A DNA stretch of 64,000 nucleotides from Nakamurella antarctica (lineage in GTDB: Bacteria > Actinomycetota > Actinomycetes > Mycobacteriales > Nakamurellaceae): NCBI RefSeq assembly GCF_003860405.1, contig NZ_CP034170.1, positions 1,302,001-1,366,000 on the forward strand, given 5' to 3'. Numbering within the stretch: position 1 is the first letter of the stretch; each line of letters opens with the position of its first letter. Made by a program: the position numbers and the translations under genes. The notes under the pieces are model-generated. The model was not told the origin of the DNA. It did not search any database and saw nothing but the letters and a program-made list of their open reading frames with translations. Positions 15,618-63,268 of the stretch are shown piece by piece.

Positions 15618-15642
15618 ACCTCCCGTCAGAATGGCGGGAGGT
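15618..15642 (-). terminator. Stem-loop at the 3' end of the DUF222/HNH gene
   Basis: ACCTCCCG at 15618-15625 pairs with CGGGAGGT at 15635-15642 over the last codons and stop of the minus-strand gene. There is no clear U-run, so termination is uncertain. Confidence 0.35.
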
Positions 15643-17569
15643 CATATTCACACTTTGCGAGTTGGTGCTGTGTGGACTGTTCCTCACTCACCGGTTTGGT
15701 CCCGACGATGGTCGCCTCCGCTTCGGCTCCACGCTCGTCAGTAGCTGCGTTGGCACTTTTGGCGTGCAGGGGCAGTGTGTTGGGGAGGGTGGTGTTCCAG
15801 TCGTGGGGGTGGCTGGTGTGGGTGTGTCCGGTGGGGGTGGTCCAGTTCAGGGTGTGGTCGTGTTGGTGTTGGACGGTGTGGGTGGTGCGGTGTTTGGTGA
15901 GGTGATGGGTTCGGCAGAGGCTGGCGAGGTTGCAGGGGCAGGTGGGGCCGCCGTTGTCATTGGTGGGGGTCCATGGCTTTTGGTGGTCGATGTCGTTTTT
16001 GGTGGCTTTGCGGTTGCATCCGGGGTAGCGGCAGGTGTGGTCTCGGGTTTTGATGAATTTGTCGACTGTGGTGGTCGGGTATCTGACGGTGCGGCCGAGG
16101 TCGAGGAGGGTGCCGCAGTTGTTGAGTGCGAGGACGGTGATGGTGGCTGCTGATGCGGCGATGGCTCTGGACATTCCAGCGGGGAGGTAGCCGTAGTTGT
16201 CGAGGTGTCCTGGGTTGTTTGCCAAGGCAGCGAGGGTGTCGAGGTTGAGGGTGATCTGTAGGGACGGTGGTGGTCGTAGTGGTCGCCATATGGGCGTGGC
16301 TGTCCCAGGATTCGGGGTCGGGTCTGGGGCTGATGGGGCTGGGATTGGTGTGGCGGGGGTTGGTGCTGGTGGGGTTGGTGCTGGTGTGGCTGGGGCGGTT
16401 GATCTGGTCTTTTTGCGCTGATTTGATTCGGTGCCGGTTTGCGAGACAGGTCTTGGTTTGGGCTCAAGGTTGGCGGCGGGTGTGGGGTTCGGCGCTGGGC
16501 CAGATTCGGTGGGTTTTTTCCGAGGTGTTTCTCGTTCGGTCCTTGCCTGCTGACCTGTCGCCTGCAGATCTGTTGTGGTGCTGTCGGTTTCACCGGTCGG
16601 TGTTGTTGTCTTTGGTTTTGGGGTTGGTGGGGTTTGGGTGGTGAAGGGGAGGAGGTTGATGGTGCCGGTGTCGGCGATGTGGTTGATGAGGTCGCTGAAT
16701 GCGTCTGCGCGGTGTTCGCCGATGCCGCGCAGGGGGGTGGCCGGCGTGTCGGCACCGTCGCTCACGTTGCTGGTGGTGGTGGTGTGGGTGCGTTCGTGGC
16801 TGTAATTGTGATCGGCGAGGGTGTTGATGAGGTGGTAGGCGGTGGCGGCGTCTTGGGCGGGTAGGAGTGCCCAGAACTTGGCGAGGCCGTATTTGTCGGG
16901 TGTGATGCCGATGGTGCGGTTATGGCTGGCTTGTTCGTAGAGAGTTTCGGCGGTGTGGGGGTCGAGGTTGATGACGATGCGGTCGATGAGGTGTCGTAGT
17001 TTCGCCGGTGGGAGTTGGGTGCCGGTGGCGAGGAGGTGGTTTTCGGCGGTGCGTTTGTGGGTGGGGCTGAGGGTGGCGGTGCCTTCGGCGATGAGGGCGG
17101 CGCGGTAGCTGTCTATTTTTCCGGTGGTGAGTGCGGTGAGGGTGGCGGGGAGTTGGGTGACGATGGTGTGGGCGGCGTCGACTTTGATTTGCGCGGTGAT
17201 GCTGGCGATGGTGAGGGCTGGGGCGAGTTGGATGGCGGTGAGTCGGCGGCATTGTTCTTCGATTTTGGTGCGGAGCAGTTCGGGGTGGTTGCGTTCGAGC
17301 TTTTCGAGGTTGAATGCGGTGTGGGCGGCGAGCATGTCGATGGCTTCGTCGCGGGTGGTGACGCGGTCGGGTTTTGCTGCCTCGTGGAGGACTTTGTGCT
17401 GGAGGGCTTGGGTCCAGGAGGCGAGGCGGTTGAGTGCGACGGCGGCGTCGATGAGCTCGGTGGGGGTGGCGTTGGGAAGGTTGAGGGTGTGCAGCGTGGC
17501 GGCCAGTTCAGGTCCGGGTGCGGCGTTCAAGTCGCCTGGTGCTGGGTTGCCGCTGTGCATGTCTGTCAC
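15626..17569 (-). CDS. DUF222 and HNH endonuclease protein (13E12-type)
   Basis: 647 aa. The N-terminal two thirds contain a DUF222 helical region (residues about 20-300), then a long Thr/Pro/Lys-rich low-complexity linker (about 310-430), a second conserved DUF222 block, and a C-terminal HNH nuclease: CRYPGCNRKATKNDIDHQKPW, then GGPTCPCNLASLCRTHH, with four metal-binding cysteines. This is the family of the mycobacterial 13E12 repeats, often present in several copies and DNA-damage inducible. A LexA box lies 25 bases upstream of the start. The coding strand is strikingly C/A-rich (plus strand G/T-rich), unlike neighbours. Function is unknown; a repair or mobile-DNA role is inferred. Confidence 0.88.
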   Translation of the reverse strand: MTDMHSGNPAPGDLNAAPGPELAATLHTLNLPNATPTELIDAAVALNRLASWTQALQHKVLHEAAKPDRVTTRDEAIDMLAAHTAFNLEKLERNHPELLRTKIEEQCRRLTAIQLAPALTIASITAQIKVDAAHTIVTQLPATLTALTTGKIDSYRAALIAEGTATLSPTHKRTAENHLLATGTQLPPAKLRHLIDRIVINLDPHTAETLYEQASHNRTIGITPDKYGLAKFWALLPAQDAATAYHLINTLADHNYSHERTHTTTTSNVSDGADTPATPLRGIGEHRADAFSDLINHIADTGTINLLPFTTQTPPTPKPKTTTPTGETDSTTTDLQATGQQARTERETPRKKPTESGPAPNPTPAANLEPKPRPVSQTGTESNQRKKTRSTAPATPAPTPPAPTPATPIPAPSAPDPTPNPGTATPIWRPLRPPPSLQITLNLDTLAALANNPGHLDNYGYLPAGMSRAIAASAATITVLALNNCGTLLDLGRTVRYPTTTVDKFIKTRDHTCRYPGCNRKATKNDIDHQKPWTPTNDNGGPTCPCNLASLCRTHHLTKHRTTHTVQHQHDHTLNWTTPTGHTHTSHPHDWNTTLPNTLPLHAKSANAATDERGAEAEATIVGTKPVSEEQSTQHQLAKCEYDLPPF

Positions 17570-30054: not shown

Positions 30055-30083
30055 GCAGGCGACCCGGCCTGCTTGTTTTTATT
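30055..30083 (+). terminator. Second terminator-like hairpin with U-run
   Basis: GCAGGC (30055-30060) pairs with GCCTGC (30067-30072), followed directly by TTGTTTTTATT. It backs up the first terminator and marks the edge of the repeated unit that begins at 30066. Confidence 0.6.
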
Positions 30084-30673
30084 GGCCGGGTATTGCTGGG
30101 GTGTTTGGTATTAGGACTGTTCGCCATTCTCCGACGTAGAGGTTGGTGTTTGATACGCGTGTTGGGGCTTGGATGTTGCCGGACTCGCCGGTGTTTGCGG
30201 TCCAGGTGATGGTCCAAGATGCGGCGGCGGTGACTGGCCATGTGCGGGCATCGTTGGTTCGTTCTGGGGTGGATTTGGTGCGGTATTTGTAGGCGCATGC
30301 TCCGGGTATCGGATTTTTGGCGGCGATGTCTACGTCGGGTCCGGGGTTGATTCCGCCTCCTGCGCAGGTGATGGGTGGTGCTGGTTCTGTGAAGTGGGTG
30401 GCTGAGACGGGTTCGCCCATTGTCCAGACGACTTTTGACAATGTGGCGGTTGCTGTGACGGTGACCGTGCCGGCGGTCGCGCTGGCGGTGAGTGGGGCCG
30501 TGTCGCCGGCCCACAGGTAGACCCAGTAGTTGACCGCTACCTGGTTGGCGTTGGGCCCGAAGTTGATTTGTGGGTTCGGGATTTTTAGTGCTTGGTAGGC
30601 CTGTTGAGCTAGGACGGCTGGATCTACCGGTGGGGGAGCGGCGGGGGCGGCGGGATCTGCGTTGGGGCGAAAG
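30066..30673. repeat. Module A, 3' conserved flank (copy of 32043-32650)
   Basis: About 608 bases nearly identical to 32043-32650 at a constant offset of 1977. The visible differences are a patch near 30167-30178 and a few single bases. It encodes the C-terminal half of the secreted protein. Identity ends abruptly at 30673. Confidence 0.92.
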
Positions 30674-32042: not shown

Positions 32043-32650
32043 GGCCTGCTTGTTTTTATTGGCCGGGTATTGCTGGGGTGTTTGGTATTAGGACTGTTCG
32101 CCATTCTCCGACGTAGAGGTTGGTGTTTGATACGCGTGTTGGGGCATCAATTTCGCCGGACTCGCCTGTGTTTGCGGTCCAGGTGATGGTCCAAGATGCG
32201 GCGGCGGTGACTGGCCATGTGCGGGCATCGTTGGTTCGTTCTGGGGTGGATTTGGTGCGGTATTTGTAGGCGCATGCTCCGGGTATCGGATTTTTGGCGG
32301 CGATGTCTACGTCGGGTCCGGGGTTGATTCCGCCTCCTGCGCAGGTGATGGGTGGTGCTGGTTCTGTGAAGTGGGTGGCTGAGACGGGTTCGCCCATTGT
32401 CCAGACGACTTTTGACAATGTGGCGGTTGCTGTGACGGTGACCGTGCCGGCGGTCGCGCTGGCGGTGAGTGGGGCCGTGTCGCCGGCCCACAGGTAGACC
32501 CAGTAGTTGACCGCTACCTGGTTGGCGTTGGGCCCGAAGTTGATTTGTGGGTTCGGGATTTTTAGTGCTTGGTAGGCCTGTTGCGCTAGGACGGCTGGAT
32601 CTACCGGTGGGGGAGCGGCGGGGGCGGCGGGATCTGCGTTGGGGCGAAAG
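32043..32650. repeat. Module B, 3' conserved flank (copy of 30066-30673)
   Basis: Second copy of the unit encoding the C-terminal half of the secreted protein. It starts with the same GGCCTGCTTGTTTTTATTGG edge as module A. Confidence 0.92.
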
Positions 32651-56900: not shown

Positions 56901-58679
56901 GTGAAGAAAACACTGAGTGCTCGGGCTCGAATCCTTGGCGTCGTGGCCGTAGCCTCTCTGCTCGCGTCGTGTAGTTCGAGCATTTCTGGGCTGGCTGCGC
57001 CTGCCACATCGCTCACCGCTTCGACGAGCGCGGGTGCCGAGCCTGCAGCTCCGCCTCAATCCGACCAACCTGCTCCTTCTACGCCTAGCCCGGCCGATAC
57101 GACGCCAAGTCAGACTGCGGCCGCTCCCACAGCACCTGCCACGGACGGTGCCGCAGCGGGCCCACCGCAGGCCGAGATCGGTCGCCCTCTGAGCGGTGGC
57201 AAGGGAGCGGGGGTCATCCCCGCCGGACTCGAGGAATTTTATAATCAGTCTTTGCAATGGGGTAGCTGCAGTCCCTACGCTCCGGACGCCGCCTCCGCTG
57301 CGTCCTATGCCAGCAAGGATTTTGACTGCGCCAATTTGATTGTCCCGCTCGATTACGGCGATCCTGCTGGAAAGACTGTCTCCGTGGGTGTTCTGCGCTC
57401 GGTCGCGAGCGGTCCCAACCGGGTGGGAACACTTCAGGTCAACCCCGGGGGGCCAGGCGGATCCGGGATGGCTTCCGTCGCGAGTCTTGCGACTGACCCC
57501 AGCACCGCCGCTTTGAAGAAAAGCTTCGATCTGATCGGTTTTGACCCTCGTGGCATCGGTGGATCGCGGCCGCTCATCGCGTGTAAAACTGACGCCGAGA
57601 AAGATGCGAGCAGGGCTGAGAACAACCGCTTGCTGACCCCCGAGCAGGTCGCTGCCGCCGCCCAGGAATTGAAGGATGAGGCTGCACTGTGCGCTCAGCG
57701 CTCAGGCGCGGCGGCTGGCATTAATGGCGCAGCGTTTTTGGGCAGCGTGGGCACCAGCACGGTCGTAAAGGACATGGACGTGCTGCGCTCAGTCCTCGGC
57801 GACGACAAGTTGTCCTATCTCGGATACTCCTACGGCACCAGGCTTGGTTACGTCTATGGCGGCCAATTTCCGGCCAATGTCCGCGCCATGGTCCTTGATG
57901 GGGCAGTGAACCCGGACGACAACAGCAGTGATTCGATTTTGGGGCAGGCCAAGGGGTTTCAGTCAACATTCGACGCGTTCGCAGCGGCCTGCACCGCAAA
58001 GCAGGGTTGCATCCTCGGCCAAGATCCAGGAAAAGCTACCGCAGTATTCCAAGCCCTCACGCGGCCACTGTTGGAAAAGCCGCTCAAGATCTCAGACGGC
58101 CGACTGCTCACCTACAATGACGTGATTACTGCGACGGTGTTCACAATGTACTCCGAAACCTATTGGCAGTACTTGGAAACCGGCCTGACGAACCTCACCC
58201 AGCAAAATGGTGACCTGCTCATGTTGCTCGCTGACAGCTACGAAGGCCGGGACGAAACCGGTCACTACTCCGAACTGACCGACGCACTGACCGCGGTTCG
58301 CTGCGTCGATGATCCTGTCGATACCACGCCTAGCATGGGCGCCGCATACAACGCGGCAGCGCCCTTCCAGGACAGTGGCGACCCCGTCGTAGAGCTCCCA
58401 AGCGTGTGCGAATCTTGGTCCGCACCAGTAAGTTTGACCCCTGGAATACCCGCAACGCCTGGGCTGGCACCGGTCGTGGTGATTTCCACGACCGGTGATC
58501 CGGCTACCCCGTACGAGTCGGGGGTGCAGCTGGCCAAGCAACTGGGTGGTTCGTTAATAACGGTGGAAGGAGATCGGCACACCGCTTTCCTTAGCGCTGG
58601 CATTAGCTGTGTCGACGACGCTGGCACCGCCTACTTGGTCGACTTAGCGCTTCCAGCAACTGGTTTGACCTGCAAGTAA
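56901..58679 (+). CDS. Secreted alpha/beta-hydrolase (tripeptidyl aminopeptidase-like) lipoprotein
   Basis: 592 aa, GTG start. Signal VVAVASLLASC with lipobox Cys about 24, then an 80-residue Ser/Pro/Ala/Thr linker. Catalytic core: oxyanion-hole motif VNPGGPGGSG, DLIGFDPRGIGGSRPL, nucleophile in YLGYSYGTRLG, and the C-terminal TAP-like domain with STTGDPATPYESG (Asp) and EGDRHTAF (His). It is related to the Rv2223c/Rv2224c (CaeA/Hip1) serine proteases found next to glnA2 in mycobacteria. Confidence 0.92.
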   Translation: MKKTLSARARILGVVAVASLLASCSSSISGLAAPATSLTASTSAGAEPAAPPQSDQPAPSTPSPADTTPSQTAAAPTAPATDGAAAGPPQAEIGRPLSGGKGAGVIPAGLEEFYNQSLQWGSCSPYAPDAASAASYASKDFDCANLIVPLDYGDPAGKTVSVGVLRSVASGPNRVGTLQVNPGGPGGSGMASVASLATDPSTAALKKSFDLIGFDPRGIGGSRPLIACKTDAEKDASRAENNRLLTPEQVAAAAQELKDEAALCAQRSGAAAGINGAAFLGSVGTSTVVKDMDVLRSVLGDDKLSYLGYSYGTRLGYVYGGQFPANVRAMVLDGAVNPDDNSSDSILGQAKGFQSTFDAFAAACTAKQGCILGQDPGKATAVFQALTRPLLEKPLKISDGRLLTYNDVITATVFTMYSETYWQYLETGLTNLTQQNGDLLMLLADSYEGRDETGHYSELTDALTAVRCVDDPVDTTPSMGAAYNAAAPFQDSGDPVVELPSVCESWSAPVSLTPGIPATPGLAPVVVISTTGDPATPYESGVQLAKQLGGSLITVEGDRHTAFLSAGISCVDDAGTAYLVDLALPATGLTCK

Positions 58680-58686
58680 GTCGACG

Positions 58687-58713
58687 GGCCGACCAGCTCA
58701 CCGCTGGTCGGCC
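58687..58713. terminator. Bidirectional terminator-like hairpin between convergent genes
   Basis: GGCCGACCAGC (58687-58697) pairs perfectly with GCTGGTCGGCC (58703-58713) around 5 bases, at the junction of two convergent genes and overlapping the stop of the minus-strand one. No strong U-run. Confidence 0.55.
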
Positions 58714-59942
58714 ACGTACATGGCCATGAGTCCGCGAAAGTGCCCCAGGAACCGGTCGTGTTCGCTCGCCGGATACGTGGTGGTGACTGTTCGAACAAGA
58801 AGGTCATCAAATGCGGGGGAGTCCACCCAGTCCAGCACGATGGCGGGCAGGCTGGCCAAGGATGTAGCGCAGAACTCCTCGTAGGCTTGGGTCTGGAAGT
58901 ACTCATCGGCCAAACCTGCATAACCAGCGAGCTTGTCGTTCCAGCTGAAGTCCGGGTTATCTGCAATGTCGAACCACTCGCGGCTCGATGTATCTATCTT
59001 GGTCTTGCGGCCAGTCACCGCGCAGAAGATCGACCAGCTGATCAGCTGCGTGATGGCCCATGGAAAGTAGTAATGCAGGCTGGTAATGGAAATGTCGGGG
59101 CAAGCATTGGCGTAATCGATGGGTTGCACCCGCGTGCCGGTCACCAACGCCTCGCACGAGTTAAATTCCCAGCGAAAGAAAGCGTTGATTGTTCTTGACA
59201 GGGTTTCGATCTCGGCGCCCGCGCTCGGTGGGAGGAAGTCATGTGCGACCTCATACCTATCGTGCATCGGTAGCTCGGGCCGGAACTTCATCACCTGGGT
59301 GCGAGGGCCGATAGTGAGGGACCTCGCGAACGAATCGAAATTGTCGACTGCGGCCTGTAGATGCATCAACATTTCGCCAGACTCGTTGTATGCCTTATGC
59401 AATGCGTCCGGGTCGTCAATTTTGCTGACACCGCGCCAGGCGCCGCCGTCGAATGGCTTCATGAACATCGGATAGCCCACGCGACCGGCCACCTCGTCCA
59501 AATCGAATGGCAGGTTGTAAGTGCCGGCCGTATACGCCCACTTCTCATGGTCGATGGGATTTTTGTACGGCACGAGCACCGTCGTTGGGATGTCGAACCC
59601 CAACCGAATCATGGCGCAGTAAGCGGAGTGCTTCTCCATTGCCTGAAAGGTGAAAGGGTTGTTCAGCAAATAGGTGTCGTTGATCAACGCAGCCTTCTTC
59701 AGCCACTCCCGCGGGTGGTAGTACCACCATGCGAGTCGATCGATGACGACGTCATGCCGCACGGGATCGCGCAGATCGAACGGTTCGATGGTGACCCGCT
59801 CCGTGGTGATCGGATACTGCCGGCCGGCGTGGGGGACCGGGCCCAGTTTGCCCACGAGCGACTCAAACGCGGTGGGCCAATCGCTTTCGGTACCCAGAAG
59901 CAGGCCGATTAATCGGGACGTGTCATCGCGCGCTGTTGTCAT
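58698..59942 (-). CDS. ATP-grasp family enzyme, unknown ligase
   Basis: 414 aa. An N-terminal region (about 1-110) with LAWWYYHPREWLKK, then an ATP-grasp core: YPMFMKPFDGGAWRGVSKI (ATP-binding lysine and glycine loop), HLQAAV, and VGG-lacking C-terminal half with EFNSCEALV and PIDYANACPD. This type is expected to join a carboxylate to an amine or thiol through an acyl phosphate. It is the last gene of an operon after two esterases, divergent from a glutamine synthetase. The substrate is unknown; peptide or amide bond formation is inferred. Confidence 0.78.
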   Translation of the reverse strand: MTTARDDTSRLIGLLLGTESDWPTAFESLVGKLGPVPHAGRQYPITTERVTIEPFDLRDPVRHDVVIDRLAWWYYHPREWLKKAALINDTYLLNNPFTFQAMEKHSAYCAMIRLGFDIPTTVLVPYKNPIDHEKWAYTAGTYNLPFDLDEVAGRVGYPMFMKPFDGGAWRGVSKIDDPDALHKAYNESGEMLMHLQAAVDNFDSFARSLTIGPRTQVMKFRPELPMHDRYEVAHDFLPPSAGAEIETLSRTINAFFRWEFNSCEALVTGTRVQPIDYANACPDISITSLHYYFPWAITQLISWSIFCAVTGRKTKIDTSSREWFDIADNPDFSWNDKLAGYAGLADEYFQTQAYEEFCATSLASLPAIVLDWVDSPAFDDLLVRTVTTTYPASEHDRFLGHFRGLMAMYVADQR

Positions 59943-60022
59943 ACAGCGATCATGTCGGTATCACCACTATCCGGCAATGGGGAAACGCTGAATTCAGTGC
60001 ATCAATTCAGCGGCGCAGCGGA

Positions 60023-60769
60023 TCACCCCAGACTCGGTAAGTAGAGGGCAGCTTGCGCGTGCCAGCTCGGCCAATCATGCGGCCACTCCTGGCCCCACAC
60101 CAAGGTGGATGCGTGAAACTGTTTGCTGGCCAGCAAGTATCCAAGTTCTTGGGTGGATGCCAGCGCCCCTGTGGAGTCCTCCCACATCCCTGACCCGACC
60201 ACCAGGGTCAGTTCCAATCGCGATCGCAGGTGGTCCAAATGTGCGCCGTGTAATCCCGACACGAATTGAATCGGGTTGAGATCGTAAGTCTCGGCGCTTT
60301 CCTCGCCCCAGGCGCGCCAGGAGCACGGGTTGTAGTTCCCCGAAAGTCCTACAGCGGCGTTAAAAATATGCGCGTGCCGCAGTGCGAACAACACAGCGTG
60401 ATAGGCGCCCATCGACGGGCCAAACGTAGCGATATCTGCGCGTCCGCCGCAGTGATCCCAGATAAACGGGACAACCTGCCAGATGACCCAATCTTCGAAT
60501 CGCCGATGCGCCCTGCCTCGTTCCAGCAAAGAGAGGTCCAAGCGTGACCAGGAATCGCCATCGTAGGACGGCACACAGAAGATTTTGATCCGGCCGGCGT
60601 CAACGCTGGGACGAACAGCGTCCAGTAATCCTTGGCTGGCGAACTCGTGAGCGCTCCCGTTCTCCGACGGAAAAACGAGGATGGGACGGCCATAGTGACC
60701 GTGCACCACGATTTCTCGGGTACCGCCGATGCTGGGAGAGTCGATCCGGTGATACTCGGTGTTAGTCAC
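60023..60769 (-). CDS. Esterase family protein (short)
   Basis: 248 aa. Alpha/beta hydrolase of the esterase D type: GHYGRPILVFPSENGS, the nucleophile elbow ATFGPSMGAYHAVLFALRH, and a late acid/His region (WGQEWPHDWPSW). No signal peptide. The start overlaps the previous stop by 8 bases and the ATP-grasp gene follows after 80 bases. Confidence 0.86.
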   Translation of the reverse strand: MTNTEYHRIDSPSIGGTREIVVHGHYGRPILVFPSENGSAHEFASQGLLDAVRPSVDAGRIKIFCVPSYDGDSWSRLDLSLLERGRAHRRFEDWVIWQVVPFIWDHCGGRADIATFGPSMGAYHAVLFALRHAHIFNAAVGLSGNYNPCSWRAWGEESAETYDLNPIQFVSGLHGAHLDHLRSRLELTLVVGSGMWEDSTGALASTQELGYLLASKQFHASTLVWGQEWPHDWPSWHAQAALYLPSLG

Positions 60770-61847
60770 GTTTTCCCCCTAGGCCTGCGCCAGAGAGGGT
60801 GCGCGAGGCTGCGATGAGCAACTCCTCGAGGTCAGGAGACCAGCAGTCCCGCCACCCAATCATGGTGTGAGCGTCGGCTACTTCCCGCATGCGAAGTTCG
60901 TAACCTTGTCCGGCCAACGCCGCCGCCATGGCGAGGTTGTTGGCGAAGTTTTCTTCGACCACGCCGCAGGTGATCAGCACGGGAACCGGCCTGACTTGGC
61001 TGTGGCTCCGTTCTGCAATAGCAGTAACGGCGCTGCAGATCTGTGCGAAATGATAGAAATCGCTTTCCTGCGCATCGAGATCGGCTGTGAAGTAGGAGCC
61101 GGACTGGACGGCGAGAGCGGACACGGCCGCCGGGTGCCGCGCCTGCAAAGCCACCATCGCGAGCCCGCCGAGACTGGCTCCCAGACCGACCACGGCGCCC
61201 ACTCGCACCTTGCGGCGGATCGCGGGGAGCACGCTCCGTACGATCTCATCGGCATAAGCAGGGTTTGCCGCGTACCACTCGTCTCGCAGACCGTGAGGCG
61301 GGTCCAGCAACGCCACGCGAAACGGTCCGGCTGCTTGAGCAGCGGTAGCCCAGCCGAGAAGGCTGCCGCGGTCGGCCATGTCGCTTCCATCGTTGGCGAT
61401 CAGCAGTGGAGTCATCTGGCGGGGATCGAGTCCCTCCGGAGACCACAATGTGACGGGAACAGCCTGGGACAGGAATCTCGGTCGGGTTTTAATCGACAGA
61501 CTTGACCCAGCCGCGACAGAGTCGAGCCAGTGCGGCTCTTCGTAATCGGGGAATCGCACTTCGGACTTCGCGCCGAAGGGATTCGGCACGCTGGCGGGAT
61601 TGGCCGGATCGATAGTCCACTCGTAGTCCTGCCCCCGACGCAGTGTGAACTGATACTCGAAGCGGCCCACAGCTGGTCGGGGCAGAACCAACTGCCAGCC
61701 GCCGTCGACTGCGGAGAAGTCCAGATCTGCTGGCGCGACGGAGAAGTCAAGCTCCAATCGGACGCCGTCGTATTCGCTATGCGGATCTGGCATCAAGAAT
61801 GTGACGTCGGTCTGGGTGACGATGGGCACGCCGTCAGGGAGCTGCAT
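60762..61847 (-). CDS. Esterase with N-terminal beta-sandwich domain (enterochelin-esterase type)
   Basis: 361 aa from the ATG at 61847; the frame extends to 61916, almost into the divergent glnA, so the shorter form is preferred. Residues about 1-130 are an early-set/CBM48-like sandwich (FLMPDPHSEYDGVRLELDF, GRFEYQF, DPANPASVPNPFG). The esterase domain has LLIANDGSDMADRG, the nucleophile in VGLGASLGGLAMVALQ and a HTMIGW end. First gene of the esterase-esterase-ATP-grasp operon. Its substrate is unknown; related enzymes hydrolyse iron-loaded siderophores. Confidence 0.85.
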   Translation of the reverse strand: MQLPDGVPIVTQTDVTFLMPDPHSEYDGVRLELDFSVAPADLDFSAVDGGWQLVLPRPAVGRFEYQFTLRRGQDYEWTIDPANPASVPNPFGAKSEVRFPDYEEPHWLDSVAAGSSLSIKTRPRFLSQAVPVTLWSPEGLDPRQMTPLLIANDGSDMADRGSLLGWATAAQAAGPFRVALLDPPHGLRDEWYAANPAYADEIVRSVLPAIRRKVRVGAVVGLGASLGGLAMVALQARHPAAVSALAVQSGSYFTADLDAQESDFYHFAQICSAVTAIAERSHSQVRPVPVLITCGVVEENFANNLAMAAALAGQGYELRMREVADAHTMIGWRDCWSPDLEELLIAASRTLSGAGLGGKRD

Positions 61848-61927
61848 TTGGCCACCGTACGGCAGGTGTGCAGCGAGTCGCGCATCCTGACAACAAGATG
61901 TTGACGCGAGGGCCATAAGCTTGAGCC

Positions 61928-63268
61928 ATGGATCGACAGCGGCAGTTTGTCTTGCGCACCCTTGAAGAGCGCGATATCCGGTTCGTCCGGCTGTGGTTCA
62001 CGGACGTGCTGGGGTATCTGAAATCCGTAGCGGTTGCACCCGCCGAGCTAGAAGGTGCCTTCAACGAAGGCATCGGCTTCGACGGCTCGGCCGTCGAGGG
62101 CTACGCCCGAGTCTTCGAGTCCGATATGGTCGCCAAACCAGATCCCTCGACCTTCCAGGTTTTACCGTGGGAAACGGACAATGGTCGCGTCTATTCCGCG
62201 CGGATGTTCTGTGATATCTCGATGCCGGACGGGTCCCCGTCGTGGGCCGACCCGCGGCACGTCCTGCGGCGTGTGATGGCCGATGCCGCTGCCATGGGCT
62301 TTAGCTGCTACGTCCACCCGGAGATAGAGTTCTTCCTTTTAAAAGACCTGCCCCAAGATGGCACGGCGCCCATTCCGGCCGACAACGGCGGTTTCTTCGA
62401 CCAAGCGTCACACGACACGGCGCCACACTTTCGGCGGCGCGCCATCGAATCGCTGGAGGCGATGGGAATCTCAGTCGAGTTTTCGCACCACGAAGGCGCC
62501 CCGGGGCAGCAGGAAATTGACCTGCGCTACGCCGACGCAATGACGATGGCCGACAACATCATGTCCTTCCGCTACGTCATCAAAGAAGTAGCTATGACGC
62601 AGGGCGTGCGGGCCAGCTTTATGCCCAAGCCCTTCCCGAAACAGCCGGGATCGGCCATGCACACTCACTTCTCGCTTTTCGAGGGAGAGACCAACGCCTT
62701 CTACGACGCGGATGATCCCTACCAAATGTCGACTACGGGTAAGCAGTTTTTAGCCGGGGTCCTTAAACATGCTCCCGAGTTGACGGCTGTCACCTGCCAG
62801 TGGGTCAACTCGTACAAGCGGCTGGTGTTAGGCGGCGAAGCTCCCACCACGGTGTGTTGGGGCCAGGCCAACCGGTCTGCGCTGGTCCGGGTACCCAACT
62901 ATTCACCGGGGAAGTCGGCGAGCCAGCGGATCGAAGTTCGGTCGCCGGATTCCTCCTGCAACCCCTACTTGATGTTTGCCGTCATCATCGCGGCTGGCCT
63001 GAAGGGGATCAAGGAAGGCTACGAGTTGGCAGCCCCCGCAGAGGACGACGTCTGGTCGTTGACGGATGCCGAACGGCGCGCCATGGGATACGCAGACCTG
63101 CCCAATTCGCTCGGACACGCGCTCGAACTCATGGAGCGATCGGAGTTGGTGGCCGAAACCCTTGGCGAGCATGTCTTCGACTTCTTCCTACGAAACAAGA
63201 AGGCCGAATGGGAGGCCTACCGCAGGCAGGTCACACCTTTCGAACTGAAGCGATACCTGTCGCTGTAG
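61928..63268 (+). CDS. glnA2: Glutamine synthetase-family enzyme, GlnA2-type
   Basis: 446 aa, the same length as mycobacterial GlnA2. It has the GS beta-grasp start (IRFVRLWFTDVLGYLKSV), the EGYARVFESDM region, metal ligands in YVHPEIEFFL and FSHHEGAPGQQEID, ATP site in KPFPKQPGSAMHTHFSLF, and RIEVRSPDSSCNPYL. The tyrosine that is adenylylated in GSI-beta (in NLYDLP) is absent here: the region reads DVWSLTDAERRAMG. Paralogues of this type include gamma-glutamyl-polyamine synthetases, so glutamine production is not assured. Confidence 0.9.
   Translation: MDRQRQFVLRTLEERDIRFVRLWFTDVLGYLKSVAVAPAELEGAFNEGIGFDGSAVEGYARVFESDMVAKPDPSTFQVLPWETDNGRVYSARMFCDISMPDGSPSWADPRHVLRRVMADAAAMGFSCYVHPEIEFFLLKDLPQDGTAPIPADNGGFFDQASHDTAPHFRRRAIESLEAMGISVEFSHHEGAPGQQEIDLRYADAMTMADNIMSFRYVIKEVAMTQGVRASFMPKPFPKQPGSAMHTHFSLFEGETNAFYDADDPYQMSTTGKQFLAGVLKHAPELTAVTCQWVNSYKRLVLGGEAPTTVCWGQANRSALVRVPNYSPGKSASQRIEVRSPDSSCNPYLMFAVIIAAGLKGIKEGYELAAPAEDDVWSLTDAERRAMGYADLPNSLGHALELMERSELVAETLGEHVFDFFLRNKKAEWEAYRRQVTPFELKRYLSL

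Follow-up and report, generated by a model that had tools for sequence, protein, structure and literature searches.

ATP-grasp enzymes work through acyl-phosphate activation. Glutathione is made by GCS and the ATP-grasp enzyme GshB, and an acyl conjugate of glutathione is hydrolysed by S-formylglutathione hydrolase. Gene neighbourhoods containing ATP-grasp and GCS2 amidoligases were reportedly described by Iyer et al. in 2009, and ATP-grasp/GCS2/hydrolase neighbourhoods are already known as a kind, while no description of the gene set considered here was found in the open-licence literature searched. This set is located in a 64,000-nucleotide stretch of the Nakamurella antarctica chromosome, referred to below as the window (C1:1302001-1366000 of the single-contig 3.38-Mb genome), and consists of the genes for two alpha/beta hydrolases, here named EstA and EstB, and for an ATP-grasp protein, which together are designated the trio or cassette. 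EstA, EstB and the ATP-grasp protein form one conserved, co-inherited unit. We propose that this unit is a cytoplasmic module in which a ligase and two esterases make and turn over a peptide-like metabolite, a reading that in our judgement is about evenly balanced between right and wrong.

Co-inheritance and linkage of the three genes

In order to assess co-inheritance, each of the three proteins was searched separately in a phylum sample of 396 genomes, employing thresholds of E<=1e-20 for the ATP-grasp protein and E<=1e-10 for EstA and EstB. The ATP-grasp protein matched 49 genomes at E<=1e-3, of which the 29 that reached E<=1e-20 were counted; in most of the 20 uncounted genomes the match was a short one covering the ATP-binding stretch, and in one of them (G017, E 1e-9) it is an ATP-grasp fragment, perhaps of a genuine relative. 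EstA was found in 27 and EstB in 30 genomes, and all three genes were present together in 25. The ATP-grasp gene is shared with EstB in 26 genomes and with EstA in 25, where approximately 2 would be expected per pair, corresponding to Fisher p values of ~1e-32 to 1e-33 for each pair of the trio (uncorrected for relatedness, and based on genome lists compiled by hand). The complete gene set was retrieved from nine of the ten families having the ATP-grasp gene. Within the genus, ATP-grasp is carried by 10 of 13 genomes and EstB by exactly the same ten, the members lacking both being G398, G404 and G405, and the nearest named relatives of the ATP-grasp protein belong to Nakamurella, with 80-81% identity. 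Incomplete sets were represented by ATP-grasp without EstB in G279 and, with partial matches in both cases, in G013 and G157, by EstB without ATP-grasp in G077, G153 and G310 (a single genus, divergent) and in G287 (a fragment), and by EstA without ATP-grasp in G091 and G161. The original prediction envisaged a four-gene set, composed of the trio and a neighbouring gene specifying a GlnA2-type enzyme, which would be conserved across actinobacteria and whose proposed common role would fall if the genes were not co-inherited. Conservation and co-inheritance were indeed observed for the trio; the part concerning GlnA2 did not stand, as detailed below.

Gene order was analyzed in 80 loci taken from titled genome records, out of 255 ATP-grasp relatives found. 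Neighbouring genes were predicted with a simple script relying on GC3, so that small genes escape it and start positions are approximate, and many of the neighbours were named by eye. At least one esterase gene is located directly upstream of ATP-grasp, on the same strand, in 69 of these loci (both esterases in 34, EstA-like only in 24, EstB only in 11, and neither in the remaining 11), and the three genes are consecutive in 18 of the 25 genomes which possess all of them, one further genome being cut by a contig end. The ATP-grasp gene is positioned ~5 kb from the esterases in G399, and the genes that flank the cassette differ between lineages. In several Nonomuraea loci without esterases, a DUF2252 gene occupies the upstream position where these would be. 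Six Nonomuraea loci with DUF2252 upstream instead of the esterases contain, near the cassette ATP-grasp gene, a second and unrelated small ATP-grasp gene (L081 9113-9928 and its relatives) whose 271-amino acid (aa) product scores below the cut-off for PF02655. Furthermore, the record titled Rhodococcus rhodnii NRRL B-16535 (JOAA01000038.1, L067) displays, around the cassette, the gene order of Kibdelosporangium aridum (L057), and may therefore be mislabelled.

Locus organization and predicted activities

Within the window, the open reading frames (ORFs) of the trio and of its two immediate neighbours are organized as follows:

58698-59942, minus strand: ATP-grasp ligase of 414 aa, ORF with a predicted RimK/LysX-like fold at residues 8-312
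60023-60769, minus strand: EstB, ORF for a 248-aa alpha/beta hydrolase (PF00756), CE1-like by profile
60762-61916, minus strand: EstA, 384 aa as listed, Fes-like two-domain esterase according to ORF, model and profile
61928-63268, plus strand: GlnA2, neighbour judged to be outside the unit (Gln-synt_C, 420 bits)
56901-58679, plus strand: TAP-like exported hydrolase, neighbour judged to be outside the unit (PF08386/PF00561)

These coordinates confirm the tight linkage of two alpha/beta hydrolases and an ATP-grasp protein that had been claimed for this locus, the EstA and EstB ORFs overlapping by 8 bases (60762-60769) and EstB being separated from ATP-grasp by 80 bases (59943-60022), as well as the divergent orientation of the trio with respect to the GlnA2-type gene. 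The listed ATG of EstA at 61916 is just 11 bases from the divergent glnA2 start. Considering that EstA residues 1-25 show no conservation and a low model confidence (predicted local distance difference test score, pLDDT, <50), the true start of EstA is probably Met24, with its ATG at 61847, which would leave ~80 bases free for divergent promoters. A promoter and terminator scan found no sigma-70-like site there and returned nothing exceeding shuffles.

The ATP-grasp protein of the window matches zero Pfam families at E<=0.01. Thirteen of 26 relatives match PF07478, with a best E value of 1.3e-4, and the corresponding score for L036 is 20.8 bits, i.e. under the cut-off of 24. An AlphaFold2 model obtained from 26 sequences (pLDDT 83.8; predicted template modelling score, pTM, 0.85) has RimK as its best match in the PDB (7qys_A, Z 17.0, root-mean-square deviation 2.9, 251 aligned), followed by synapsin, LysX (Z 15.0) and ArgX (Z 14.8); 692 of 999 chains were aligned at Z>=8, the top rows being all ATP-grasp enzymes. 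Residues 8-312 are thus modelled with the fold of RimK, LysX and ArgX, from which the protein would differ by an additional, all-helical C-terminal part of ~100 residues after residue 312 and does differ by its fixed esterase partners. Residues K104, K162, R207, E264, D276 and N279 are invariant in all 26 relatives, as well as in more distant ones of 28-44% identity, and by analogy represent putative ligands of ATP and Mg, in that two lysines of the ATP site, one arginine and the acidic and Asn residues of the metal site are apparently shared with RimK, LysX and ArgX. The putative metal-site motif of the window protein is D-x-x-N, and that of RimK is E-x-N. On the basis of its model the protein is predicted to be an ATP-grasp ligase with a RimK-like fold, which does not indicate the substrate, and may have amino-acid ligase activity.

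Since RimK and the graspetide macrocyclases MdnB and MdnC are among the best fold matches, the ATP-grasp protein might instead modify a protein or a ribosomal peptide in a RimK- or graspetide-like manner, with the esterases processing the product. However, no precursor-like gene is present in the 80-base gap (this refers to the gap itself, a systematic search for small ORFs in the wider flanks or in other genomes not having been made), and the variable flanking genes do not favour this explanation either, which we consider quite unlikely.

The EstA model (pLDDT 89.0, pTM 0.86) matches the enterobactin esterase Fes (3mga_A) with Z 31.2 over 338 aligned residues of 20% identity, followed by CBM48-CE1 feruloyl esterases with Z 23-24, and the EstA profile matches Fes 2b20 with an E value of 2.4e-17. 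In accordance with this model, EstA is predicted to have the Fes architecture, consisting of an N-terminal beta domain and an alpha/beta hydrolase domain, and, as in Fes, a serine, a histidine and an acidic residue are invariant (S248, H350 and E321, in 21 of 21 relatives). The protein is here called Fes-like rather than Fes because its score against NCBIfam PRK10439 is 35.4 bits, the cut-off being 222. EstB scores 27.7 bits against PF00756, exceeding the gathering cut-off of 22, and its profile gave weak matches (E 2.5e-5) to CE1 and other esterases. S119, E197 and H231 of EstB are invariant in 24 of 24 relatives and are the presumed catalytic residues; a signal peptide was not seen when the sequence was read by eye. 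The predicted folds and the invariant residues fit a bond-making ligase accompanied by two serine hydrolases, in keeping with the earlier description of the trio.

The full two-domain Fes architecture of EstA would also suit an enzyme that frees iron by cutting a depsipeptide or siderophore ester, in the way that enterobactin is used. However, CE1 carbohydrate esterases with CBM48 reach the Z scores of 23-24 mentioned above, and among the neighbour clusters that recur in the 80 loci, which were read by eye and not by family scan, no gene for siderophore synthesis or uptake attracted attention. A role in iron release is very unlikely. EstA differs from the enterobactin esterase also in its low identity and in its ATP-grasp partner.

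Amide (or ester) formation and ester cleavage are proposed for the trio because such reactions are the established chemistry of ATP-grasp enzymes and of Fes- and CE1-like esterases. Like RimK, LysX and ArgX, the ATP-grasp protein would convert a carboxylate to an acyl phosphate and then couple it to an amine (or hydroxyl) on a small peptide-like molecule. EstA and EstB would hydrolyse esters or thioesters, either in this compound itself or in acyl groups attached to it, and this cleavage would let the compound be processed, released or recycled. The data show the gene set, its order, its co-inheritance, the invariant residues of catalytic type and, by modelling, the folds; the amide/ester chemistry, the existence of one compound common to all three proteins and the direction of hydrolysis are what we infer.

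EstB-type esterases also occur with ATP-grasp genes outside the sampled phylum. Among 14 plasmid matches to EstB, five were opened, and in three of these (Peptoclostridium, Pararhizobium and Sinorhizobium) the EstB relative is directly adjacent to an ATP-grasp gene; EstB-type esterases therefore partner more than one ATP-grasp subfamily, in more than one phylum. Plasmid carriage of the window ATP-grasp was rejected, as a search of 72,556 plasmid records for it came back empty, and so was plasmid carriage of its distant form. A phage or defence origin of the trio was rejected, as none of its proteins had a match in PHROGs or PADLOC at E<=0.001.

A number of observations weigh against a co-inherited module with the activities proposed above. 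The Fisher test takes no account of phylogeny. Six of the 25 genomes with all three genes have esterases that are divergent or placed away from ATP-grasp, so that the term 'one unit' does not apply universally, and the 11 loci in which no esterase adjoins ATP-grasp (as judged from the locus neighbourhoods) are mostly from Nonomuraea. Two of the five opened plasmid matches of EstB (Thiodictyon and Rhizobium) have no ATP-grasp match alongside. With respect to the ligase, PurK/PurT, synapsin and inositol kinases reach Z values of 14-15 against the model, for which reason the fold does not single out one reaction, and the matches of its profile to the PDB span the ATP-binding stretch only (profile positions 135-207). 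Finally, hhalign assigned a probability of 0.2% to a relationship with the single E. coli RimK sequence compared, which gives a link to this RimK no support at the sequence level, the resemblance to RimK being one of predicted fold.

GlnA2 and the TAP-like hydrolase

GlnA2 of Streptomyces coelicolor is a gamma-glutamylpolyamine synthetase with a changed ammonium site (Glu55, Asp150 and Pro238), according to PMC8998196. Residues E57, D152 and P240 of the window GlnA2 fit these positions at a constant offset of 2, by position and not by alignment, so that the protein may resemble the S. coelicolor type at this site. The window GlnA2 scores 308.6 bits against NCBIfam GGputSyn (NF045547), below the cut-off of 650, and 449.6 bits against TIGR00653 GlnA, over the cut-off of 429.15. 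The statement that no named pathway fits the locus was too strong for GlnA2, given the function that PMC8998196 assigns to the Streptomyces homologue.

That the window GlnA2 is a fourth member of one pathway with the trio, producing a gamma-glutamyl or amide compound, was suggested by the divergent layout, which is present here and in most of the sampled genus members, and would agree with the gamma-glutamylpolyamines made by its homologues (PMC8998196). The comparative data are contrary to it: GlnA2 adjoins the cassette in just 5 of the 80 loci, all Nakamurella-like; in G404 and G405, which lack ATP-grasp and EstB, GlnA2 is retained as the immediate neighbour of the TAP-like hydrolase, without an intervening trio; and in G406 GlnA2 and TAP likewise form a closed pair, the trio being 2.2 Mb distant. 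GlnA2 was therefore rejected as a functional partner and is regarded as a neighbour of the trio rather than a member, and the four-gene pathway is highly improbable. The TAP-like hydrolase directly adjoins GlnA2 in L243 and L244, and is 0.5 kb apart from it in L242. Most simply, the trio of this lineage lies between an otherwise adjacent GlnA2/TAP pair as a matter of position only.

Two further features of the window, distant from the trio, are recorded here. Two 608-base stretches at 30066-30673 and 32043-32650, in adjacent genes for secreted/lipoprotein-like proteins, are 98.8% identical, and there is in addition a pair of 116-base stretches with 96.6% identity; together they are taken as a recent tandem duplication. 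The region 15626-17569 has a very high GC skew (0.37) and an AT skew of -0.35 across a 648-codon ORF on the minus strand.

GCS2-type ligases and extended clusters

A GCS2-type carboxylate-amine ligase of ~490 aa (PF04107) directly adjoins the cassette in 12 of the 80 loci, being downstream on the same strand in six Pseudonocardiaceae-type loci and in three metagenome-assembled genomes, convergent downstream in two loci, and divergent upstream in one. The 490-aa form is present in 17 of the 29 ATP-grasp genomes, with 4.8 expected. GCS2-type families as a whole are too common to discriminate, since PF04107 matches 57 of 80 genomes, and the same search misses, at threshold, the 490-aa-type copy of the present genome. 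This copy, the only one found, is 63% identical, is located at C1:2446553-2448022, unlinked to the trio, and adjoins an M20-type peptidase gene and methylmalonyl-CoA mutase genes, as named by eye. The genome thus differs from ATP-grasp/GCS2 neighbourhoods, and from the 12 linked relatives. In G256 (L181 6501-10594) an overlapping operon encodes EstB, a distant ATP-grasp protein (28% identity), CP-ATP-grasp and GCS2, and in G042 ATP-grasp, CP-ATP-grasp and GCS2 genes are found beside a convergent EstA/EstB pair. Such clusters of relatives unite ATP-grasp, CP-ATP-grasp and GCS2-fold ligases with hydrolases, as is said of the neighbourhoods of Iyer et al.

The three arrangements of GCS2 next to the cassette, the G256 and G042 clusters, the excess of shared genomes and the presence of a GCS2 gene in the genome itself are consistent with a glutathione-like logic, in which GCS2 would make a first amide (e.g. 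gamma-glutamyl), the ATP-grasp protein would add a second residue and the esterases would hydrolyse acyl conjugates. A GCS-type ligase, an ATP-grasp enzyme and a PF00756 esterase are likewise combined in the glutathione pathway, although the proteins considered here belong to different subfamilies and the likeness is one of logic. The main weakness of this explanation is that 12 of the 29 ATP-grasp genomes, mostly from one family (f10), are without the 490-aa GCS2; in addition, 48 of the 65 genomes carrying this 490-aa type are without ATP-grasp, and GCS2 is unlinked in the present genome. We rate it as unlikely.

In a longer form of the cluster, the ATP-grasp gene is accompanied by up to three extra ATP-grasp genes, a gene for an S51-peptidase-like protein (22.2 bits, below the cut-off of 23.9) and a divergent EstA/EstB pair. 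This form is complete or partial in G075 (L202), G299 (L207), G177 (L205), G279 and two Pseudonocardia loci (L078 and L100), and is present in G085 and G183 (L201) with the cassette ATP-grasp located elsewhere. AG2, an ATP-grasp protein of the long form, is absent at E<=1e-20 from all 13 genus members, including the present genome. In a set of 80 genomes it was found in 6 of the 29 having ATP-grasp, in G413, and in 2 of 38 ATP-grasp-negative controls, which were picked by hand and not randomly; both of these positive controls carry a divergent EstB. As a more speculative extension, to which we give little credence, carriers of the trio would make a new glutathione-like peptide by means of a GCS2-type ligase, whose gene is unlinked in the present genome, and the ATP-grasp protein, with EstA and EstB acting on acyl conjugates and, in the 'long' lineages, extra ATP-grasp proteins extending the peptide and the S51-like peptidase degrading it.

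By eye, the genes enclosing the long cluster of G177 look like glgC, glgA, glgB and a GH57-like gene, and pgm- and glgB-like genes are found near the cluster in several Micrococcales-type loci and in G085, which would suit a module acting on glycogen or a related glucan through ester or amide decoration. Yet pgm-like genes occur in 9 and glgB-like genes in 8 of 108 stretches (some loci being counted twice), mostly as one synteny block, and neither is beside the trio in the window. Glycogen linkage was accordingly rejected as a general feature, and action on a glucan is most improbable.

Returning to the proposed module that makes and turns over a peptide-like metabolite, the comparative data point to GCS2, not GlnA2, as the better candidate partner, and the idea of a glutamine synthetase-fold ligase working with the ATP-grasp protein may be right with this different protein in place of GlnA2. 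The longer versions of the cluster may reveal the chemistry of the trio, and the genus offers natural presence/absence pairs for it. A ligase without a Pfam match and two recurrent esterase partners have been kept together in at least nine families, which usually signals a real pathway.

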